Assembly: GCA_013393415.1 (NCBI GenBank)
Contig: JABXHI010000027.1
Coordinates: forward strand, 1-64,000
Direction: 5' to 3'
DNA from: Micrococcaceae bacterium
GTDB taxonomy: Bacteria; Actinomycetota; Actinomycetes; Actinomycetales; Micrococcaceae
DNA: 64,000 nucleotides
The notes under the pieces are model-generated. The model saw nothing but the letters and a program-made list of their open reading frames with translations, ran no database searches and was not told the origin of the DNA. Position numbers and translations under genes: made by a program. Below are positions 52,393-63,398 of this stretch, one piece after another (position 1 is the stretch's first letter; the number at the start of each line of letters is the position of its first letter).

Positions 52393-53037
52393 TCAGTGCT
52401 CTTGAGCCGCCGAACCTAAAACACCACTCCTTGCAGAGTGGGGACTGAAGATCCGATCGAGATGATCCTCGACGACAGCCAGAGCCTCGTCGGCTGAATA
52501 GTGCCCGACAAGCAGGTGAGAAACCAGGCCATCAGTGACGGCCACGAGAGTCATCGCCTCACGGTCGGTCGCGAACTCCGAAGAGACTTGGTGGATGGCT
52601 TGCGCAACGTGCAGCTGACCTGCGATCAGCTCATGTAACCCAGCCCAGGCATCCCGAATTAGCGTGGCAAGATCAGCATCCACCGCGGAACGTGCGACGA
52701 AGGCTAGCCAGACCGAACTGCCGATGCGTTGTGCTTCATCCAGCGGCAGGGTCTGATGCATGACCGTGCGGATTACCGTTCGAGGGTGGTCAGGCTCCTG
52801 CGATTCCGTCAACGAATTGGAGGCCCCAGAGTTTGCCAGGTCGATCATATATTGACACGCGAACAGAATCATCTGGTCCTTGGTGCCGAAGTAGTGCTGT
52901 ACTGTGCCCATGGAAACGTTGGATTCCGAAGCGACGGCGCGCAGAGTCACCGCATCGAGCCCACGGTTGGCTGTGATGTGCCAGACGGCTTCGGCAAGCT
53001 TCTGTCGGCGCTGTTCGTGATCAACGACTTTCGGCAT
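52393..53037 (-). CDS. TetR family regulator
   Basis: 214 residues from ATG 53037 (MPKVVDHEQRRQKLAEAVW). The helix-turn-helix ITANRGLDAVTLRAVASESNVSMGTVQHYFGTKDQMI at about residues 18-54 is clear, and the C-terminal all-helical ligand domain is typical. It is divergent from an ABC exporter operon, with a 19-base palindrome between them that covers the exporter promoter. It probably represses that exporter until a toxic ligand appears. Confidence 0.9.
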   Translation of the reverse strand: MPKVVDHEQRRQKLAEAVWHITANRGLDAVTLRAVASESNVSMGTVQHYFGTKDQMILFACQYMIDLANSGASNSLTESQEPDHPRTVIRTVMHQTLPLDEAQRIGSSVWLAFVARSAVDADLATLIRDAWAGLHELIAGQLHVAQAIHQVSSEFATDREAMTLVAVTDGLVSHLLVGHYSADEALAVVEDHLDRIFSPHSARSGVLGSAAQEH

Positions 53038-53088
53038 CCAAACCCTCCCTATTTTTATCATGCGAGTGCATTGCGTTAAACCAGGTCT

Positions 53089-53107
53089 TTGTTTTATTAT
53101 AATACAA
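53089..53107. promoter_or_regulatory. TetR operator over an exporter promoter
   Basis: Near-perfect palindrome TTGTTTTATTATAATACAA (eight of nine pairs match) with the consensus -10 TATAAT (53098-53103) inside it. TTGCGT and TTAAAC lie upstream as possible -35 elements. Located 31 bases before the ABC gene and 52 before the TetR gene on the other strand. Confidence 0.65.
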
Positions 53108-53137
53108 CTGCATAAAAAACATGCGGAGTGGACCTCC

Positions 53138-54100
53138 ATGATCTCCGTCGCGAAGATCGCAAAGCACTATGGCGGCACAACAGCGGTTGATGATGTGTCG
53201 TTTGACGTCCAGCCGGGTGTTGTGACCGGGTTCTTGGGCCCAAACGGAGCCGGCAAGACCACGACCATGCGCATGATCTTAGGACTGGACCGGCCTACAT
53301 CCGGTGTTGCCACCATCAATAACCGCTCCTACGCCGATGTTCCAGCCCCTATGCGTGAAGTGGGTGCGCTACTCGACGCCAAAGCGATCCAGACGGGTCG
53401 TACGGCGCGCGACCATCTGCGGTGGTTGAACCGAGCCGGTAACTTGCCGTCGGGTCGCGTCACTGAAGTATTGAAGATGGTGGAGTTATCTGATGTGGCC
53501 GACCGGCGGGTTGCTGGATATTCGTTGGGTATGTTCCAACGCTTGGGGATCGCAGCGGCGCTGTTAGGTGATCCGGAAACGCTCATCCTCGACGAGCCAT
53601 CCAATGGGCTTGACCCTGCCGGTATGCGTTGGATCCGTGACTTCATGAAGGATATGGCAGCACAGGGGCGCACCGTCTTTGTCTCCAGCCATCTTATGGG
53701 GGAGATGCAGCAGTCCGCCGACCAGGTGATCGTGATCAACCGCGGACGGCTCGTGGCCGATGTTGACGTTGAACAGCTGTTCACGTCTGCTGCGCAAGTG
53801 ATCGTACAGTCGCCGCGAAGCGACGAACTGCGTGTTCTACTGGTCGACCATGGCGCGAAAATTCACCAGACAACGAGTGAGGCCACCGTTGGTAATGAAT
53901 CTCAAGGGATGGACCCTGCCCACAGTGCGCTTCGGGTCGCCGGGCTGGGGGCACCACGGATCGGTGAGTTGGCTGCAGCAAACCGGATACCACTGTATGA
54001 ACTAACCCCCGAACAGACCGATCTCGAAACTGCATTCTTGGCGCTGACCGAGCAAGAAACCCTTGGTGTGGAGGCTTTACATGACCGTCACGAACGTTGA
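53138..54100 (+). CDS. ABC transporter ATP-binding protein (drug/bacteriocin exporter type)
   Basis: 320 residues from ATG 53138. Walker A GPNGAGKTTTMRMILG, signature YSLGMFQRLGIAAALLG and Walker B TLILDEPSNGLDPAGMRWIR are complete. The C-terminal extension of about 100 residues fits CcmA/BcrA-like exporters. It overlaps the permease gene by 20 bases. With the TetR gene and operator this is a typical inducible export unit. Confidence 0.9.
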   Translation: MISVAKIAKHYGGTTAVDDVSFDVQPGVVTGFLGPNGAGKTTTMRMILGLDRPTSGVATINNRSYADVPAPMREVGALLDAKAIQTGRTARDHLRWLNRAGNLPSGRVTEVLKMVELSDVADRRVAGYSLGMFQRLGIAAALLGDPETLILDEPSNGLDPAGMRWIRDFMKDMAAQGRTVFVSSHLMGEMQQSADQVIVINRGRLVADVDVEQLFTSAAQVIVQSPRSDELRVLLVDHGAKIHQTTSEATVGNESQGMDPAHSALRVAGLGAPRIGELAAANRIPLYELTPEQTDLETAFLALTEQETLGVEALHDRHER

Positions 54101-54902
54101 CCAGCAATCGACCGTGCTTCGTCGTAGCGGGTTGAAATCTGTGATTGCCTCCGAGGCGATAAAGATATGGACGCTGCGGTTCCCACGTGTCCTCGTAACC
54201 CTCGCGGTCGTGCTTGCTGCGGTGACCGCTCTGCTGTTTCTACTGACAATCGATGTCACACAAGGTGACTCGCTGGCTGCGCTGTTGTGGGCCGATATTG
54301 CCAGTACGGCTTTGCTCGGCGTCGACGCAACCGCAGTCGTCTTCATCATCTTGGGGGCATGGTTCGTGGCCTCCGAATATGCCACGGGGATGATGCGCAC
54401 CACCCTGGTGGCTACGCCGAACCGCGTTAAGGTCTTTTCGGCGAAGCTCCTCGTGTTGGCAGGGGCCGCAGTGCTGGCAGGCTTGGTGTCCGTTCTCCTG
54501 GCGATACTCGTGGCGCAGTTGGTTCTGGCGGTATCCGGTCTACCGGTGCTCAATTTGATGGACGGGGAACTTCTGCGGATGGCGTTGGGCAGTCTACTGA
54601 TAGTGCCTTTCTATTCTGTGCTGGTTGCTGCTCTTGCGTTCATTGTCCGCACTACCGGCGGTGCAGTGACGGCCACGCTGGCAGTAATGTTTGCTCCCGC
54701 CGTGGTCTCAATGCTGCCTAACGCGGCGCAGCAATTCCTGTTGCCGATGTTTCCGAATGCTGCGATTCTTAGCATTTCTGGATCAACCGACCCCGGCCAG
54801 GCAGTGCACTTGGTTCCGCTCCTCGCCGTGGTGGTCCTGGCGTGCTGGCTGGTCGTTGTGCTCGGTGCGGCACTGACTCTGTTCTCCCGCAGAGACGCGT
54901 GA
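54081..54902 (+). CDS. ABC-2 type permease
   Basis: 273 residues from ATG 54081, overlapping the end of the ATPase gene (in-frame start at 54063 also exists). Six hydrophobic helices: near 25-50, 70-90, 110-140, 155-180, 190-215 and 245-270. No catalytic motif. Partner of the preceding ATPase, substrate unknown. Confidence 0.82.
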   Translation: MTVTNVDQQSTVLRRSGLKSVIASEAIKIWTLRFPRVLVTLAVVLAAVTALLFLLTIDVTQGDSLAALLWADIASTALLGVDATAVVFIILGAWFVASEYATGMMRTTLVATPNRVKVFSAKLLVLAGAAVLAGLVSVLLAILVAQLVLAVSGLPVLNLMDGELLRMALGSLLIVPFYSVLVAALAFIVRTTGGAVTATLAVMFAPAVVSMLPNAAQQFLLPMFPNAAILSISGSTDPGQAVHLVPLLAVVVLACWLVVVLGAALTLFSRRDA

Positions 54903-56749: not shown

Positions 56750-57364
56750 CTACAAGCCCCGAGGCTCTGCGGTGGTGTCCATTGTTGCGGGCCACTTCGG
56801 TGCCTGAGGTTGCCACGCGGACATTGCGTTGAGTAGTGCTGTCGGGGTGGTTTCCACAATGAGTGTCTCGCGGAACCTGGACGAGATGAAACCTTGCTCC
56901 GTCATGTGGTCCAACATTTCGAGGAGCGGTTGCCAGAAACCATCGACATCATAGAGCGCGACGGGCTTGGCATGGAGGCCCAACTGCTGCCAGGTCCAGA
57001 CTTCGAAAATTTCCTCGAGCGTCCCAGCGCCGCCCGGTAACGCCACAAAACCATCGGCGAGGTCTGCCATGCGAGTCTTGCGGATGTGCATATCTGGCAC
57101 GACTTCGAGCGTTGAAAGACCGGGGTGCCCGATCTCGCCGTGCACCAGCGATTCAGGGATCACACCAATCACATCGCCACCTGCAGCAAGCGCACTATCT
57201 GCTACGACTCCCATGAGCCCGACTTTGCCGCCGCCGTAGACAATATTTGTGCCGGCCTTGACAGCAGTTCGTGCGAATTCTTCGGCTGCGGTTGTATATT
57301 CAGTAGAGGCCCCGTGGGCCGAACCGGTGAATACTGCAAGACGGTTGAGATGATGAGGTTGCAT
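56750..57364 (-). CDS. LOG family protein (TIGR00730 Rossmann fold)
   Basis: 204 residues from ATG 57364; the frame is open much further upstream but that part is not family-like. Motifs GGGKVGLMG (44-52) and PGGAGTLEE (110-118) define the LOG family, which includes cytokinin riboside 5'-monophosphate phosphoribohydrolases. In bacteria it may hydrolyse AMP-like nucleotides. Transcribed alone, divergent from the acyl operon. Confidence 0.9.
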   Translation of the reverse strand: MQPHHLNRLAVFTGSAHGASTEYTTAAEEFARTAVKAGTNIVYGGGKVGLMGVVADSALAAGGDVIGVIPESLVHGEIGHPGLSTLEVVPDMHIRKTRMADLADGFVALPGGAGTLEEIFEVWTWQQLGLHAKPVALYDVDGFWQPLLEMLDHMTEQGFISSRFRETLIVETTPTALLNAMSAWQPQAPKWPATMDTTAEPRGL

Positions 57365-57470
57365 CTTGTCGAGAGTAGCATGACGGAGTGATAAGCTCAC
57401 GGCGGGACAGCTCATAGCGCAGCTGAAACGCGCCGGGGTGGTACAAAGGTCATTCCGTAGGAGGAGGACG

Positions 57471-58490
57471 ATGCACATGCCACCACAAGACGGGCAGACA
57501 GGTTCGCCGAACACCCGTCGCTCACTGGTGAATCGGCTCCTTCGAGCAATACTGGGCCTGTTTGCGGCACCACGGGTGAACATGCTCGAAGAGTACGAGA
57601 AGATCCGCCGTAGGCAACGTCGACTTGCCGCATCATTGGCACTGTCATCGCGGGCTGAGGACTGCGAGATGCCTTCTGATGACGGGAACCATCAGATTCC
57701 GGTACGGGTATTCCAACCAAAAGACCGTTTGCGTGATGACGTGTTGGTGTTCTTTCACGGTGGTGGTTGGGTCGTCGGCGACGTGGAGAGTTACACTCCG
57801 ACATGTGACACGATGGCTGATCTGACCGGATGTGTGGTCGTCTCGGTGGACTACCGTCTGGCACCAGAACACCCCTTTCCTGCGGGTCTGAACGATTGTT
57901 ATAGCGTGGTTCGGCACCTGCTAGACGACCCGAGTACGGTCGGCCTCGACGATGCCGACAACATTGTGTTGATCGGCGATTCTTCGGGGGCAAACCTGAC
58001 CGCCGCCGTCTCGTTGCTGCTGCAAGAACGCGGCCATCGCGGCGCGACCCGACAAATTTTGCTCTACCCTGTGACCCACTGGAATCACGATCCGGCGACC
58101 TCACCGTTCGACTCGGTGCGCAAACACGGAAAAGATTACCGACTCACTAATATTGAAGTCGATGATTACTTCAAGCTCTATCTGACCGATCAACAACAAC
58201 GCTCCAATCCACTCGTGTCACCATTGGAAGCCAAAGACCTCGCCGGCCAGCCCAGCACGCTGGTGATCACCGCCGAGCTGGACTTACTGGCGGATGAAGG
58301 CGAAGCGTACGGTCGAGCACTTGAACAGGCTGGTAATGCGGTTCAGATACATCGGGTGGACGGCGCGCTACACGGTTTCATCGCGTTGCCACGCGTCTCC
58401 CGATCTCTGCGGGAGGCCTACGAGGTGATCAATACTTTTCTTGGTGAACCAACCGTTGACGAACAACCCGGTTCTCAGGAGTCGGCATGA
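57471..58490 (+). CDS. Alpha/beta hydrolase, hormone-sensitive-lipase type
   Basis: 339 residues from ATG 57471 with GGAGGAGG upstream. HGGGW (96-100) forms the oxyanion hole, GDSSGAN (169-175) carries nucleophile S171, and the Asp (AELDLLADEG) and His (GALHGFIALP) of the triad are visible. No signal peptide, but a hydrophobic/basic N-terminal helix near residues 19-35 could touch the membrane. It overlaps the following acyltransferase gene by four bases, first of a three-gene operon. Confidence 0.88.
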   Translation: MHMPPQDGQTGSPNTRRSLVNRLLRAILGLFAAPRVNMLEEYEKIRRRQRRLAASLALSSRAEDCEMPSDDGNHQIPVRVFQPKDRLRDDVLVFFHGGGWVVGDVESYTPTCDTMADLTGCVVVSVDYRLAPEHPFPAGLNDCYSVVRHLLDDPSTVGLDDADNIVLIGDSSGANLTAAVSLLLQERGHRGATRQILLYPVTHWNHDPATSPFDSVRKHGKDYRLTNIEVDDYFKLYLTDQQQRSNPLVSPLEAKDLAGQPSTLVITAELDLLADEGEAYGRALEQAGNAVQIHRVDGALHGFIALPRVSRSLREAYEVINTFLGEPTVDEQPGSQESA

Positions 58491-59836
58491 CTCGACGGAA
58501 CTGGGTGCGACTCGATAACGCGTCCAACATTTTCCTGGCAGCCCGTAGCGAGACGGATTCCAAGGTGTTCCGTCTCAGTGCCCAGATGGATCACGAGGTG
58601 GATCCGCAGATGTTGCAGACCGCCTTGGACAGGACATACGACCGTTATCGGCTCTATCACGCGGTTCTTCGACGTGCCGTGTTTTGGTACTACCTGCAAG
58701 ACAGTGATCTTCGCCCGTATGTCACCGCCGATGACAAACCGACGTGCGCACCCATTTATGATGCGGATCGACGCGGGCTGCTGTTTCGGGTCATGCACCA
58801 CGACGAACGCATCGTGTTAGAAGTCTTTCATGCACTGTCCGATGGTACCGGTGCCCTGTGGTTCCTGACGGATCTTGTCGCCGAATACCTCCGCGTGCGC
58901 TACCCGGAGCAACAACGGGCCCTGGAGAACACCGGACCCATCAACCTGGTGCCGCAATCGGGGCAGGTCGATGACGGGGCAACAGAGCACGAACTGGTCA
59001 CCGACAGTTTCACGCACTACTTCCGGGGCCGCCGGGACAAACAACCCAACGAAACACCTACCGGCCCTCGAGCGGGGGGTGCCGCGAAGAAGGTGCACCG
59101 CGTCACCGGCACCCGCACTCCGGACTTTCGCACTCGGGCTGTTGAACTCACGATGCCCGCCAAACAAGTGCTCGAGCTGGCGCGCGCCGAAAGTATCTCG
59201 CTGACGATGTACCTGACGGCACTGTTTTTCGAATCCATTCGGGTATCCTCGGATGGTTCGGACACCACCCGTACACTCTCGGCGTCGGTTCCAGTGAACT
59301 TACGTCAGTTCTTCCCCTCAACGTCACCGCGAAATTTCTTCGCCACCGTTCGGGTCGAACACACCTACGGGCACGGAGCTGACGACGTCGGCTCCGTGGG
59401 TAGGCATTTGGATAGCCAATTTAGACCAAAAGCAACCCCCGAAGCGCTAGAAAAGAAACTCCGCAGATTCATTCGGTTCGAAAAAATGCCATTGCTGCGG
59501 ATCGTGCCCCGCCCGCTTAAAGATGTCATCCTGCGCGGCATTAACTGGGCCAGTAACCGCGGGCTCACCGTGGCCATGTCGAATCTGGGCCGTGTGAATC
59601 TCGGGGAGCCGGCTGATTCACACGTCCAACGCATGGCGTTTCAAGTCTCTGCGGTGAGACCGCAGCTCTCCGTCATGTCGCATGCAGGTCTGCTCACGGC
59701 AACGTTCACCTCCCCGTTCATCGAGACCGATCACATCCGAGCATTCGTACGCTTGCTGACCGGCCAGGGGATCGATGTGCAGGTCGCGGCCGCACGGGTC
59801 ACTGAGGCAGAGCTCGAACAGGAGACAGACACATGA
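58487..59836 (+). CDS. Condensation-fold acyltransferase (alcohol acetyltransferase-like)
   Basis: 449 residues. The catalytic HxxxDG motif of the CoA-dependent acyltransferase / condensation superfamily is H115-A-L-S-D119-G in VFHALSDGTGALWFL. The N-terminal WVRLDNASNIFLAARSE and a middle SASVPVNLRQFFPSTSPRNFFA fit the alcohol acetyltransferase / PapA-like branch. It probably transfers an acyl group to an alcohol or lipid. Overlaps both neighbours by ATGA, so the three proteins are made together. Confidence 0.8.
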   Translation: MTRRNWVRLDNASNIFLAARSETDSKVFRLSAQMDHEVDPQMLQTALDRTYDRYRLYHAVLRRAVFWYYLQDSDLRPYVTADDKPTCAPIYDADRRGLLFRVMHHDERIVLEVFHALSDGTGALWFLTDLVAEYLRVRYPEQQRALENTGPINLVPQSGQVDDGATEHELVTDSFTHYFRGRRDKQPNETPTGPRAGGAAKKVHRVTGTRTPDFRTRAVELTMPAKQVLELARAESISLTMYLTALFFESIRVSSDGSDTTRTLSASVPVNLRQFFPSTSPRNFFATVRVEHTYGHGADDVGSVGRHLDSQFRPKATPEALEKKLRRFIRFEKMPLLRIVPRPLKDVILRGINWASNRGLTVAMSNLGRVNLGEPADSHVQRMAFQVSAVRPQLSVMSHAGLLTATFTSPFIETDHIRAFVRLLTGQGIDVQVAAARVTEAELEQETDT

Positions 59837-60498
59837 GACGCTGCACTGAATGTGCCGCCGACATCGAGGGGACATGGACCCGCTGCCCCCTGTGTGATGC
59901 CACTGTCGTTGGGGAATCGGCTCGCAGCCCGTTTCCTGCAGTGCCCCTGACGTTTTCTCGGCGCCGCGTGTTGCGGATCCTGTTCCTCAGCTCGCTTGCC
60001 GTCATCGTTGCCTCATTTGCTGCCCAGCTTCTATTAGGGCGTGGCCCAGCGGAGTTTGGTGCCCTGCGTTCCGTGTGGCTGGGAGTTAGCGCCATGTGGC
60101 TCGTCGCGCTGACCGCTATACGTAAGCGTCATAATGTTGCCAAAAATACCGTCTACATTGTGGTGTTAGTGGGGGTGGTATGTGTCTACTGGGACTACCT
60201 GACCGGCTGGTACGGCTGGTCAATGAATTACGCTGTCCCCATCGTGTGCGCGTCGTCGGTCGTTGCCCTCCTGATCACCGTAAGAGTACTGCGGATGGAA
60301 GTCGGGGAGCACATCGTTTACAGCGGTCTGACGATTCTGCTGGGCCTGGTCCCGATCGGCTCGTTGATTTTCGGCTGGGTGACCAACCCGGTGCCTTCAG
60401 CAATTTGCGGTGGCATCAGCGTGGTCGCGCTGGTGCTGTTGCAGATCGCCCGCGGTGCAGAAGTCCGCCACGAGCTCGCAAAGCGTTTACATTTGTAA
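59833..60498 (+). CDS. Zinc-ribbon membrane protein (DUF6320)
   Basis: 221 residues. An N-terminal zinc ribbon has C4, C7, C18 and C21 (RRCTECAADIEGTWTRCPLC), followed by five to six membrane helices from about residue 45 to 210 and a short basic tail. DUF6320 proteins are known to me mainly as neighbours of condensation-type acyltransferases and esterases. Its function is unknown; it may hold the enzymes at the membrane or move the product. Last gene of the operon. Confidence 0.8.
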   Translation: MRRCTECAADIEGTWTRCPLCDATVVGESARSPFPAVPLTFSRRRVLRILFLSSLAVIVASFAAQLLLGRGPAEFGALRSVWLGVSAMWLVALTAIRKRHNVAKNTVYIVVLVGVVCVYWDYLTGWYGWSMNYAVPIVCASSVVALLITVRVLRMEVGEHIVYSGLTILLGLVPIGSLIFGWVTNPVPSAICGGISVVALVLLQIARGAEVRHELAKRLHL

Positions 60499-60772: not shown

Positions 60773-61513
60773 TCAGTCCTGAACGGTGGGATTTCCTAGC
60801 GCCCTCAGTAGACGATCCTGGATGTGCGAATTGGTGGTTCTGTCGGCCCCGGCTTCAGCTGGTTGGTCGGCGTGCTGCGCAGTCTTGACAGGCCCAGCCT
60901 CATCGGTGGTTGATTTTGTCGCGAGCAACCGTTGCATGCCGACTCCTAAGAGGTCGTCGTCGACCAGGTCGGTGCCACCAAGGACGAGGAGCCCCGAACC
61001 TTGATCAAGGGCCGTCAGTAATGTGCCGAGCTGTTGCGGTGTTAATTCATCGTCCACGATCTGTGAATCGTGTGCCACCTGAGTGTATTGATCAACAACA
61101 TCTTGCATTCGTTGTTGAAGTTCGGCGCTGAGTTCTTCGTCTCGCGCAGCGACGGCAATGAACTCAAGCGTTGCTAAAGCAAACCCGCGAATGACCTGGT
61201 CTAGTTCGGCCTCGTCTGTTGTCTCGAACACGTCTGCGGAAGATGTGTCGGGGCGCGGCGTATCTGCCGATCCTGTCGGTTGAGACCAGACGGTTTCAAG
61301 ATTTGCATCCATGACGGCTAAGAACAGCGCAGCCTTACCCGAAAAATTCGAATATACCGCGCCCTTGGAAAATCCGGCCTGACGAGCAATTCGCTCCAGA
61401 TTTGCGGCGTGGTATCCCAGCTCGGCAAAAACTTCACGCGCCGCTTCGATAAGAGCAGCACGGGTCTGTTGCTGACGCTGTTGGCGAGATGGCGGTTCAG
61501 GCAAATCTGTCAT
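60773..61513 (-). CDS. TetR family regulator
   Basis: 246 residues. The DNA-binding domain is RAALIEAAREVFAELGYHAANLERIARQAGFSKGAVYSNFSGKAALF at about residues 18-62. A helical ligand domain follows, then a polar tail of about 50 residues. It is divergent from an ABC exporter operon, across a palindromic site at 61575-61600. Expected role: repressor of that exporter. Confidence 0.9.
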   Translation of the reverse strand: MTDLPEPPSRQQRQQQTRAALIEAAREVFAELGYHAANLERIARQAGFSKGAVYSNFSGKAALFLAVMDANLETVWSQPTGSADTPRPDTSSADVFETTDEAELDQVIRGFALATLEFIAVAARDEELSAELQQRMQDVVDQYTQVAHDSQIVDDELTPQQLGTLLTALDQGSGLLVLGGTDLVDDDLLGVGMQRLLATKSTTDEAGPVKTAQHADQPAEAGADRTTNSHIQDRLLRALGNPTVQD

Positions 61514-61550
61514 GCACCGATTCTAGGACAGAACCGTATGCAGCAATGCG

Positions 61551-61600
61551 TTGACATCCCCACAGTATCCACGTACCGTCAGTATCTGAATACTGTTGGT
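61551..61600 (+). promoter_or_regulatory. Promoter and palindromic operator of the second ABC exporter
   Basis: TTGACA (61551-61556), a 17-base spacer and TACCGT (61574-61579) form a good promoter. The palindrome from ACCGTCAGTAT to ATACTGTTGGT (61575-61600; 9 of 11 pairs match around CTGA) overlaps the -10 element. This is the expected position for repression by the divergent TetR protein. Confidence 0.6.
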
Positions 61601-61615
61601 ATCTGAGGATGTTGT

Positions 61616-62608
61616 ATGGATAACACGCTTACTATCTCTGGTCTCACCCGACGCTTCGGCAAGGTCGTAGCTAACGACGATATTTCTCTACGCATTCGCC
61701 CCGGTGAGGTGGCCGGCTTGCTCGGTCATAACGGGGCAGGTAAGACGACGCTTGTTTCACAGTTGGTTGGGTTGCTGCGTCCTGATGCCGGATCGATTCA
61801 CCTCGGTGATATAGATGCGGTAGCCCATCCTGCGGCCGCACGCCGACAGGTGGCGGTGCAATCTCAATCCCAAGCTCCGATCGACGGGCTGACACCCCGT
61901 GCAGCGATTGAAATTGCGTGTCGACTGCGTGGACTTTCGGCTGCTGAGTCCAAGATGACCACAAAAGCCATTGCAGAAGAACTGAATATCGAGGGTTATC
62001 TGGACCGGCGCGCTTTGCCTGAGGGAGGCGGCCTGTCGGGAGGGATCCGGCGACTCACGTCATTCGCGATGGCCGCGGCTGCACCCACACCGCTACTGGT
62101 CCTTGATGAACCCACCAACGATGTGGACGCGGGGCGCCGAAGATTTCTCTGGAACGCCGTGCGGCGTCGGGCTGATGAAGGTGCCGGCGTACTGCTGGTA
62201 ACACACAATGTCACCGAAGCCGAGCGGATCGTCGATGATCTCGTCATTCTTGACCGAGGAAAGGTCGTTGCCTCAGGATCACCTGCCCAGCTGCGGGGAA
62301 CTGAAGATCATGATGTGCGGCTGGAGTTGCACTTGCCGTTCGCTGATGCCGATCCATTAACGCCTGAGACCCCCGCCGCAGGGATGCCGCCGGTCAGATC
62401 TCAGGCACGGAGGGGCCGCCATCTCATACTGAGGCTAGCCTCGGAACACGCAGGTCAGGCTGTTGTGTGGGCCAATGCTCTGCGAGCCACCGAGCAGATT
62501 ACCGGGTACGGACTGGCTCCAACCAGTCTCGAAGACGCCTACCTGGCATATACCTCGGCAACTCATAATACGTACAGCTCATCGGAACAGGGTGACGTTC
62601 ATGTCTAG
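61616..62608 (+). CDS. ABC transporter ATP-binding protein
   Basis: 330 residues. Walker A GHNGAGKTTLVSQLVG and Walker B LLVLDEPTNDVD are intact. The signature reads GGLSGGIRRLTSFAMA, close to LSGGxxRR. It belongs to the DrrA/CcmA type of exporters. The following permease gene starts inside its last eight bases. Confidence 0.9.
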   Translation: MDNTLTISGLTRRFGKVVANDDISLRIRPGEVAGLLGHNGAGKTTLVSQLVGLLRPDAGSIHLGDIDAVAHPAAARRQVAVQSQSQAPIDGLTPRAAIEIACRLRGLSAAESKMTTKAIAEELNIEGYLDRRALPEGGGLSGGIRRLTSFAMAAAAPTPLLVLDEPTNDVDAGRRRFLWNAVRRRADEGAGVLLVTHNVTEAERIVDDLVILDRGKVVASGSPAQLRGTEDHDVRLELHLPFADADPLTPETPAAGMPPVRSQARRGRHLILRLASEHAGQAVVWANALRATEQITGYGLAPTSLEDAYLAYTSATHNTYSSSEQGDVHV

Positions 62609-63398
62609 GACAATCGAAGGCTCGGTGCAACAAGCTCAACGTGTTCGACAGCTGCCACGAGCGAATTTGTGGGCGAGCTTCTCTGCGCTCATGAGATGGC
62701 AGCTGCTGCAGGTTGGAACAATGCTCCCTTTGATCGTGGTCGTGCAAGGCATGCTCGCAGCGGGAATTGTGGTCGGTTTTGGGTTTATCATCCCGGATAT
62801 TACTGATGCCACAGCCCTGTTTTTATCGACCGGCGCCCCAGCAATGCTGCTCTTGACCATTGGTCTGGTGTTAGTTCCGCAGGCTGTCGCTCGAATGCGG
62901 ACGGATGGCACGTTTGAATTTATGCGGTCTCTTCCGGTTCCGAGGCCGCTGATGTTGGCAGTTGAGTTGACCGTCTGGTCAGCCATTGCCCTGCCCGGGG
63001 TGGCGATCGGAATTCTCGTTGCCCAATTACGCTACGACCTGAGTCTTGCTATCGATTGGGGCGTCTTGATTGCTGCTGCAGTGTTGGTGACGGTCATGGC
63101 CACTGCCATAGGCTATGCCATTGCCGTGACGCTGCAACCCATGTTGGCCCAATTGATCAGCCAGGTACTCGTCTTTTTCGTCATGTTGTTTTCCCCGATC
63201 ACTTTTCCGGCGTCACAGCTACCCGAATGGTTTCAAATCCTGCATGACTATCTTCCAATTCAGGCAGGTGCTGATCTATTGCGGGCCGGATTGGCGTCGC
63301 AGGTTTATGAAGCGGGGGCCCGCGACGTCATAGTGTTATTTATTTGGTGTGTAGCAGGCGTCGCCATCACGCTCAGAGCGTTGATGCGTCGCAAGTAA
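62601..63398 (+). CDS. ABC-2 type permease
   Basis: 265 residues from ATG 62601. Six hydrophobic segments, near 45-70, 75-100, 125-150, 155-180, 190-215 and 240-262. The FSPITFPASQLPEWFQILHDYLPIQAGADLLRAG region is the hallmark of ABC-2 exporters (DrrB type). Partner of the preceding ATPase; the substrate is unknown. Confidence 0.87.
   Translation: MSRTIEGSVQQAQRVRQLPRANLWASFSALMRWQLLQVGTMLPLIVVVQGMLAAGIVVGFGFIIPDITDATALFLSTGAPAMLLLTIGLVLVPQAVARMRTDGTFEFMRSLPVPRPLMLAVELTVWSAIALPGVAIGILVAQLRYDLSLAIDWGVLIAAAVLVTVMATAIGYAIAVTLQPMLAQLISQVLVFFVMLFSPITFPASQLPEWFQILHDYLPIQAGADLLRAGLASQVYEAGARDVIVLFIWCVAGVAITLRALMRRK

Follow-up and report, generated by a model that had tools for sequence, protein, structure and literature searches.

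A conserved esterase–acyltransferase–DUF6320 operon from a Micrococcaceae bacterium as a candidate membrane-docked acylation/deacylation unit

Gene organization of the trio

The window analysed here was a 64,000-nucleotide (nt) stretch from a Micrococcaceae bacterium (assembly GCA_013393415.1, contig JABXHI010000027.1, positions 1 to 64,000 of the forward strand), and it harbored a trio of consecutive genes on that strand: a putative esterase gene (EST), a putative acyltransferase gene (AT), and a gene for a DUF6320 membrane protein. The trio and its motifs were located as follows:

57460-57468, +, GGAGGAGGA, likely ribosome-binding site of EST, just upstream of it
57471-58490, +, EST, predicted HSL-family (Abhydrolase_3) esterase, 339 amino acids (aa)
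57756-57770, +, HGGGW oxyanion-hole motif of EST (H96, G97-G99, and W100 invariant in 13 aligned EST)
57981-57983, +, predicted EST nucleophile Ser171 (GDSSG; invariant in 13/13), with partners Asp275 and His301 by family rule
58487-58490, +, ATGA overlap EST/AT, the AT start lying inside the last 4 nt of EST (GGC ATGA CT)
58487-59836, +, AT, predicted HxxxDG acyltransferase of the CAT/condensation superfamily, PapA/AATase/WS-DGAT branch, 449 aa, 50.9 kDa
58829-58846, +, HALSDG active-site motif of AT (H115..G120; H115, D119, and G120 invariant in 18/18)
59833-59836, +, ATGA overlap AT/DUF6320, the DUF6320 start lying inside the last 4 nt of AT (CAC ATGA GA)
59833-60498, +, DUF6320 membrane protein (PF19845), 221 aa
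59842-59895, +, zinc ribbon CxxC-x10-CxxC (Cys 4, 7, 18, and 21 of DUF6320), proposed AT docking site, preceding the PF19845 match
59959-60450, +, six predicted transmembrane helices (DUF6320 residues 43-206; model helices, low confidence)

The three genes overlapped by ATGA at both junctions, as claimed in the preliminary description of this region, and all catalytic and zinc motifs were present. The recurrence of these overlaps elsewhere was more than chance: (i) an RTGA overlap was found at the AT/DUF6320 junction in 50 of the 53 long loci holding both genes, its absence being confined to a fusion (L025) and two Bacillota plasmids (L063 and L064), and (ii) an RTGA overlap was found at the EST/AT junction in 43 of the 51 listed loci, plus a small gap in one and a longer overlap of ~24-27 nt in seven (L021, L022, L024-L026, L095, and L096), several loci in both counts being one genome fetched twice. 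In these seven loci, the EST TAG stop (CTAGACAAC) fell within the codons of the conserved LDN motif of AT. The 'equal synthesis' of the three proteins, also put forward in the preliminary description, was not established by gene overlap alone. A scan for consensus promoters and terminators found none, and the only repeats were weak ones present in two copies plus two pairs of imperfect inverted repeats.

Distribution and co-occurrence

The source genome had one DUF6320 gene. At E<=0.001, DUF6320 was present in 8 of 296 genomes sampled across the phylum, 19 of 248 in the order, 17 of 149 in the window's family, and 8 of 9 in the genus, as well as in 39 of 138 genomes of family f26 from the same phylum (37 over cut-off); named loci with 59-75% identical DUF6320 came from Citricoccus, Kocuria, Leucobacter, Gulosibacter, Agrococcus, Brevibacterium, and Propionibacterium. 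A separate AT search recovered the identical set of 17/149 genomes in the window's family, and in f26 it recovered 43/138 genomes, covering all 37 with DUF6320 over cut-off; the remaining six were three genomes with a shortened DUF6320 (G174, G667, and G670; see below), G740 with a divergent full-length DUF6320 (E 1.4e-5), G674, and G794.

EST adjoined in 57 of the 59 genomes that had several kb of flank around a DUF6320 over cut-off (17/17 in the window's family, 15/16 elsewhere in the order, 24/25 in f26, and 1/1 for G012), the exceptions being G662 (L088), where 10 kb of sequence gave no EST match, and G669, whose contig stopped inside AT. This count left out twelve f26 genomes with at most ~1.5 kb either side of DUF6320, together with G652, whose DUF6320 was stop-broken and split over two contigs. 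The three families were thus regularly found together, and the conservation of the trio held up in this survey. EST looked accessory because AT–DUF6320 occurred without it in some loci, and AT–DUF6320 was therefore regarded as the core.

AT–DUF6320 was also found outside the phylum, in two Bacillota plasmid records, one from Anaerotruncus (with EST) and the other from Subdoligranulum (without EST). In addition, AT–DUF6320 was carried by four human faecal contigs filed as unverified 'Bacteriophage sp.', L143-L146 (MT835641, MT835472, MT836634, and MT835493); judged by gene content, they appear to be pieces of bacterial chromosomes, and L143 grouped as actinobacterial in the AT tree. L146 contained AT–DUF6320 alone, while L144 and L145 displayed the order AT–DUF6320–EST', with a Say1-type esterase downstream; that an esterase was kept although its position and subfamily changed speaks for a functional link. 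Just upstream of AT in L145 lay a gene of a small multidrug-export family (PF06695; L145:3189-3674). A search of viral contigs with the AT profile gave 17 pattern matches, none of which was confirmed.

On the Anaerotruncus colihominis plasmid, the trio was directly followed by a diacylglycerol-kinase/YegS family gene (L063:9943-10842; DAGK_cat 106.5 bits). Together with the membrane protein partner and the PapA_C and WS/DGAT similarity of AT (see below), this gene would fit envelope-lipid decoration, with AT–DUF6320 acylating a membrane lipid (glycolipid, polyprenol, or diacylglycerol) that EST would trim or turn over. The kinase link, however, was a single locus; clustering of neighboring open reading frames (ORFs), noisy because of spurious high-GC ORFs, gave no gene common across lineages beyond the trio; and the patchy distribution (8/296 phylum genomes) disfavors a core envelope lipid. 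Envelope-lipid decoration is accordingly considered doubtful.

DUF6320, its zinc ribbon, and its fusions to AT

The window protein was assigned to DUF6320 by its profile score (157.5 bits against PF19845, cut-off 29.9) and its N-terminal CxxC/CxxC pair, the four Cys of which were invariant in 16/16 aligned DUF6320. Lys/Arg counts per loop favor a cytoplasmic location for the ribbon, both termini, and the loop joining helix 2 to helix 3, which was the most Lys/Arg-rich one. The structural model was too poor (predicted local distance difference test [pLDDT] 64.9) to support a statement on the fold; a fold search with it returned nothing at E<=0.001, and a PDB sequence search with DUF6320 gave solely chance-level ribbon/RING matches.

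A total of 86 distinct AT–DUF6320 loci (141 loci minus duplicates) fell into two states: (i) separate proteins with the CxxC...CxxC ribbon in 81 loci and (ii) AT and DUF6320 fused in one frame, all without ribbon, in five loci (G260, G668, G671, G672, and G791). Mixed states, whether fused with ribbon or separate without it, were not found among the 86. Only loci with both domains consecutive in one frame were counted as fusions; apparent 'fusions' in high-GC genomes (e.g., L005, L012, and L015) were rejected, being overlapping long frames with the domains in different frames. Loci without a match to each of AT and DUF6320, such as L008/L027 (G179) and L061/L097 (G450), whose DUF6320 matches were below cut-off, were excluded before counting, as was L119, located at a contig end; L147-L149 (three shortened DUF6320) and L150-L152 were outside the table of 86 loci.

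In a maximum-likelihood tree of 84 AT proteins, built without two short AT rows (L102 and L090), the fusions needed at least two origins, a single origin being recovered in 0% of 200 bootstrap trees, and unfused, ribbon-bearing sisters stood beside each fusion (G666/G669 and G066). The fused locus of G668 was on a 2.9-Mb single contig, making an assembly fault unlikely. A Fisher value of 2.9e-8 was obtained, but it presupposes independence of the loci, which does not hold; the argument from ribbon loss relies on the two independent fusion events rather than on this value. In G174, G667, and G670 (L147, L148, and L149), DUF6320 was cut to the ribbon plus about two helices, the remainder being gone; these genomes belonged to a genus whose sister genomes fused DUF6320 to AT, losing the ribbon.

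Because fusions lack the ribbon and shortened forms retain the ribbon with a short anchor, we infer a docking role for the ribbon, which would hold AT, and an anchoring role for the membrane part of DUF6320. The evidence for this docking is strong but not proof: the fusion events are few, and a gene-fusing deletion can remove the ribbon mechanically. The fusions and the ribbon loss lend weight to the earlier suggestion of a membrane-associated complex.

DUF6320 might otherwise be a transporter that exports the ester, its ribbon coupling synthesis to export, a role to which its six predicted helices and the multidrug-export family gene adjoining AT in L145 would be suited. No transporter family matched DUF6320 over a cut-off, however, and the ribbon plus about two helices left in G174, G667, and G670 would be too little for a usual transporter, so that this role is judged quite improbable.

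Acyltransferase and esterase

The assignment of AT to the CAT/condensation superfamily was based on its HxxxDG motif and on the two-lobed fold of its model. The window AT passed no Pfam or NCBIfam cut-off, and its family relations were traced through 18 AT members: (i) PapA_C (PF16911) was matched at E<=0.05 by 11/18 (best 7.6e-13), the window AT not among them, and the fusions L123 and L128 scored over its cut-off; (ii) AATase (PF07247) was matched at E<=0.05 by 9/18 including the window AT (best 1.4e-6); (iii) acyl_WS_DGAT and PapA5 were each matched by 3/18; and (iv) the Condensation profile was matched weakly by 2/18 (best 0.023). The AT profile search also reached the TomBC condensation domain (E 1.8e-4). 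The AT model (pLDDT 61.5) resembled AzeD (Z 17.9, root-mean-square deviation [rmsd] 4.1 over 316 residues), PapA5 (Z 16.5, rmsd 4.0 over 303 residues), WS/DGAT (Z 15.9, rmsd 4.4 over 296 residues), and TRI3 acetyltransferase (Z 13.5, rmsd 4.1 over 311, tied with many others), all of one fold.

The fold common to AT and condensation domains would also allow a nonribosomal peptide synthetase (NRPS)-like condensation on a carrier-bound substrate. PF00668 (condensation domain), however, had no match in the source genome (0/1) versus matches in 4/14 control genomes, a genome-wide carrier-protein search not having been made, and no NRPS was found among eight neighboring ORFs scanned. The sequence families, the fold matches, and this absence of PF00668 point to AT being an O-acyltransferase; an NRPS-like AT was rejected as very improbable, in agreement with the earlier statement that the operon is not a normal nonribosomal pathway.

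Mycobacterial PapA5/PapA proteins resembled AT in fold, HxxxDG motif, and the stand-alone O-acyltransferase character predicted for AT. PapA5 acts on phthiocerol in concert with polyketide synthases, whereas the partners of AT were an esterase and DUF6320. WS/DGAT wax ester synthases likewise shared the fold; their profile match was weak in the three members noted above, and the window AT gave none at E<=0.001.

EST was classed as an HSL-family (Abhydrolase_3) esterase by its profile score (219.5 bits against PF07859, cut-off 25), the HGGGW and GDSxG motifs, and the Asp/His partners, with the triad S171, D275, and H301 invariant in 13/13 aligned EST; it scored 260 bits against NCBIfam LipP1, under the 350 cut-off. 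The EST' of L144 and L145 passed the cut-off of the Say1_Mug180 steryl acetyl hydrolase family (PF10340; 72.2 and 69.5 bits versus 21). As to the earlier proposal that the operon makes or edits an acyl ester, the predicted enzymes fit the making and cutting of an ester, but an envelope lipid or wax-like ester as the product was not borne out.

Other genes of the window

A LOG/lysine-decarboxylase-like gene (56750-57583, -; PF03641 151 bits) was divergent from the trio, and neighbor clustering gave no other locus in which it accompanied the trio. Two TetR regulators (window 52393-54902 and 60773-63398), each divergent from ABC transporter genes, flanked the region. The ORF 54063-54902 had no Pfam family at E<=1e-5.

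Proposed mechanism and related systems

The trio is proposed to be a membrane-docked, coenzyme A (CoA)-dependent O-acyltransferase with a counter-esterase, i.e., an acylation/deacylation unit working like yeast Atf2/Say1, a proposal whose chances of being right and wrong we rate about evenly. AT would be a cytosolic CoA-dependent O-acyltransferase of the PapA/AATase type, bound by the cytosolic DUF6320 zinc ribbon to its membrane anchor, and docking would bring the active site up against the cytoplasmic membrane from inside the cell. Its substrate there would be a hydrophobic alcohol, whose hydroxyl it would esterify, the likeliest acyl group being acetyl or another short one; the putatively co-translated HSL esterase would hydrolyse the same kind of ester; and the pair would set how much of the alcohol is masked, as in the yeast cycle.

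Atf2 is a member of the AATase family, and the yeast Atf2/Say1 pair is eukaryotic and is not known to be encoded in an operon or to have a DUF6320 or ribbon anchor. As described in PMC4076087, sterols destined for secretion are acetylated by Atf2, and Say1 removes the acetyl group from those that are retained. The trio would resemble this pair in having an acetyltransferase opposed by an acetyl esterase at the membrane, and the Say1_Mug180 scores of the L144 and L145 EST' given above add to the likeness; since the trio pairs the same two kinds of enzymes, it may work like that cycle.

Several points weigh against this proposal: (i) the window AT and EST are, by their own scores, outside the AATase and Say1_Mug180 families, AATase being the best match of AT (E 0.007, 15.4 bits) below the 22 cut-off and EST scoring 16.8 bits against Say1_Mug180, under the 21 cut-off; (ii) even for the EST' of L144 and L145, Abhydrolase_3 outscored Say1_Mug180; (iii) the DUF6320-partnered proteins are known here from sequences and models alone, and the AT and DUF6320 models are both of low confidence; (iv) docking draws on only two fusion events, and the ribbon-plus-short-anchor forms do not account for the six-helix domain; (v) AT was found at E<=1e-30 without an adjacent DUF6320 in 2/43 f26 genomes (G674 and G794); and (vi) EST was not found beside AT–DUF6320 in L088, L064, and L146, so the cycle is not obligatory.

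A related activity is on record in Clostridium thermocellum: PMC8112048 describes WP_003519433.1 (Clo1313_1074), a 50.4-kDa alcohol acetyltransferase that was modelled on TRI3 and shares its operon with an esterase/lipase; it turned 2-phenylethanol into 2-phenylethyl acetate and had no activity on the linear C2-C10 alcohols tested. It is similar to AT in size (50.4 versus 50.9 kDa), esterase/lipase operon partner, and TRI3-like fold, a likeness by description, but it differs in that DUF6320 is not mentioned in the part of that paper covered here. This precedent, the TRI3 similarity of both proteins (the Z 13.5 match of AT being tied with many), and the patchy distribution would suit an AT that acetylates exogenous aromatic or other toxic alcohols, for detoxification or volatile-ester formation, with DUF6320 just bringing AT to the membrane where such alcohols partition. 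A co-expressed esterase, however, would undo detoxification unless selective, and action on exogenous small alcohols is considered unlikely.

Among open-licence papers, none was found on DUF6320 or on the trio as a unit, and further literature searches for the acyltransferase/esterase pair gave nothing useful. Novelty lies in the proposed DUF6320 docking module and in the trio as a unit. The ester-cycle proposal can tentatively be carried further, to a version more probably wrong than right: the trio would be a mobile, self-contained bacterial counterpart of the Atf2/Say1 cycle, with a ribbon-docked acetyltransferase and an opposing acetyl esterase in one operon toggling a lipophilic alcohol between its free and its masked state, and with the ribbon as a specific docking domain that a fusion of enzyme and anchor makes unnecessary.

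DUF6320, a family of unknown function, gains a testable role from these results, which predict a zinc-ribbon docking interface replaced by covalent fusion at least twice in evolution. If the paired esterase reverses the reaction, the trio would represent an operon-encoded ester switch that occurs in several lineages of bacteria and can be likened to a eukaryotic cycle of lipid export.

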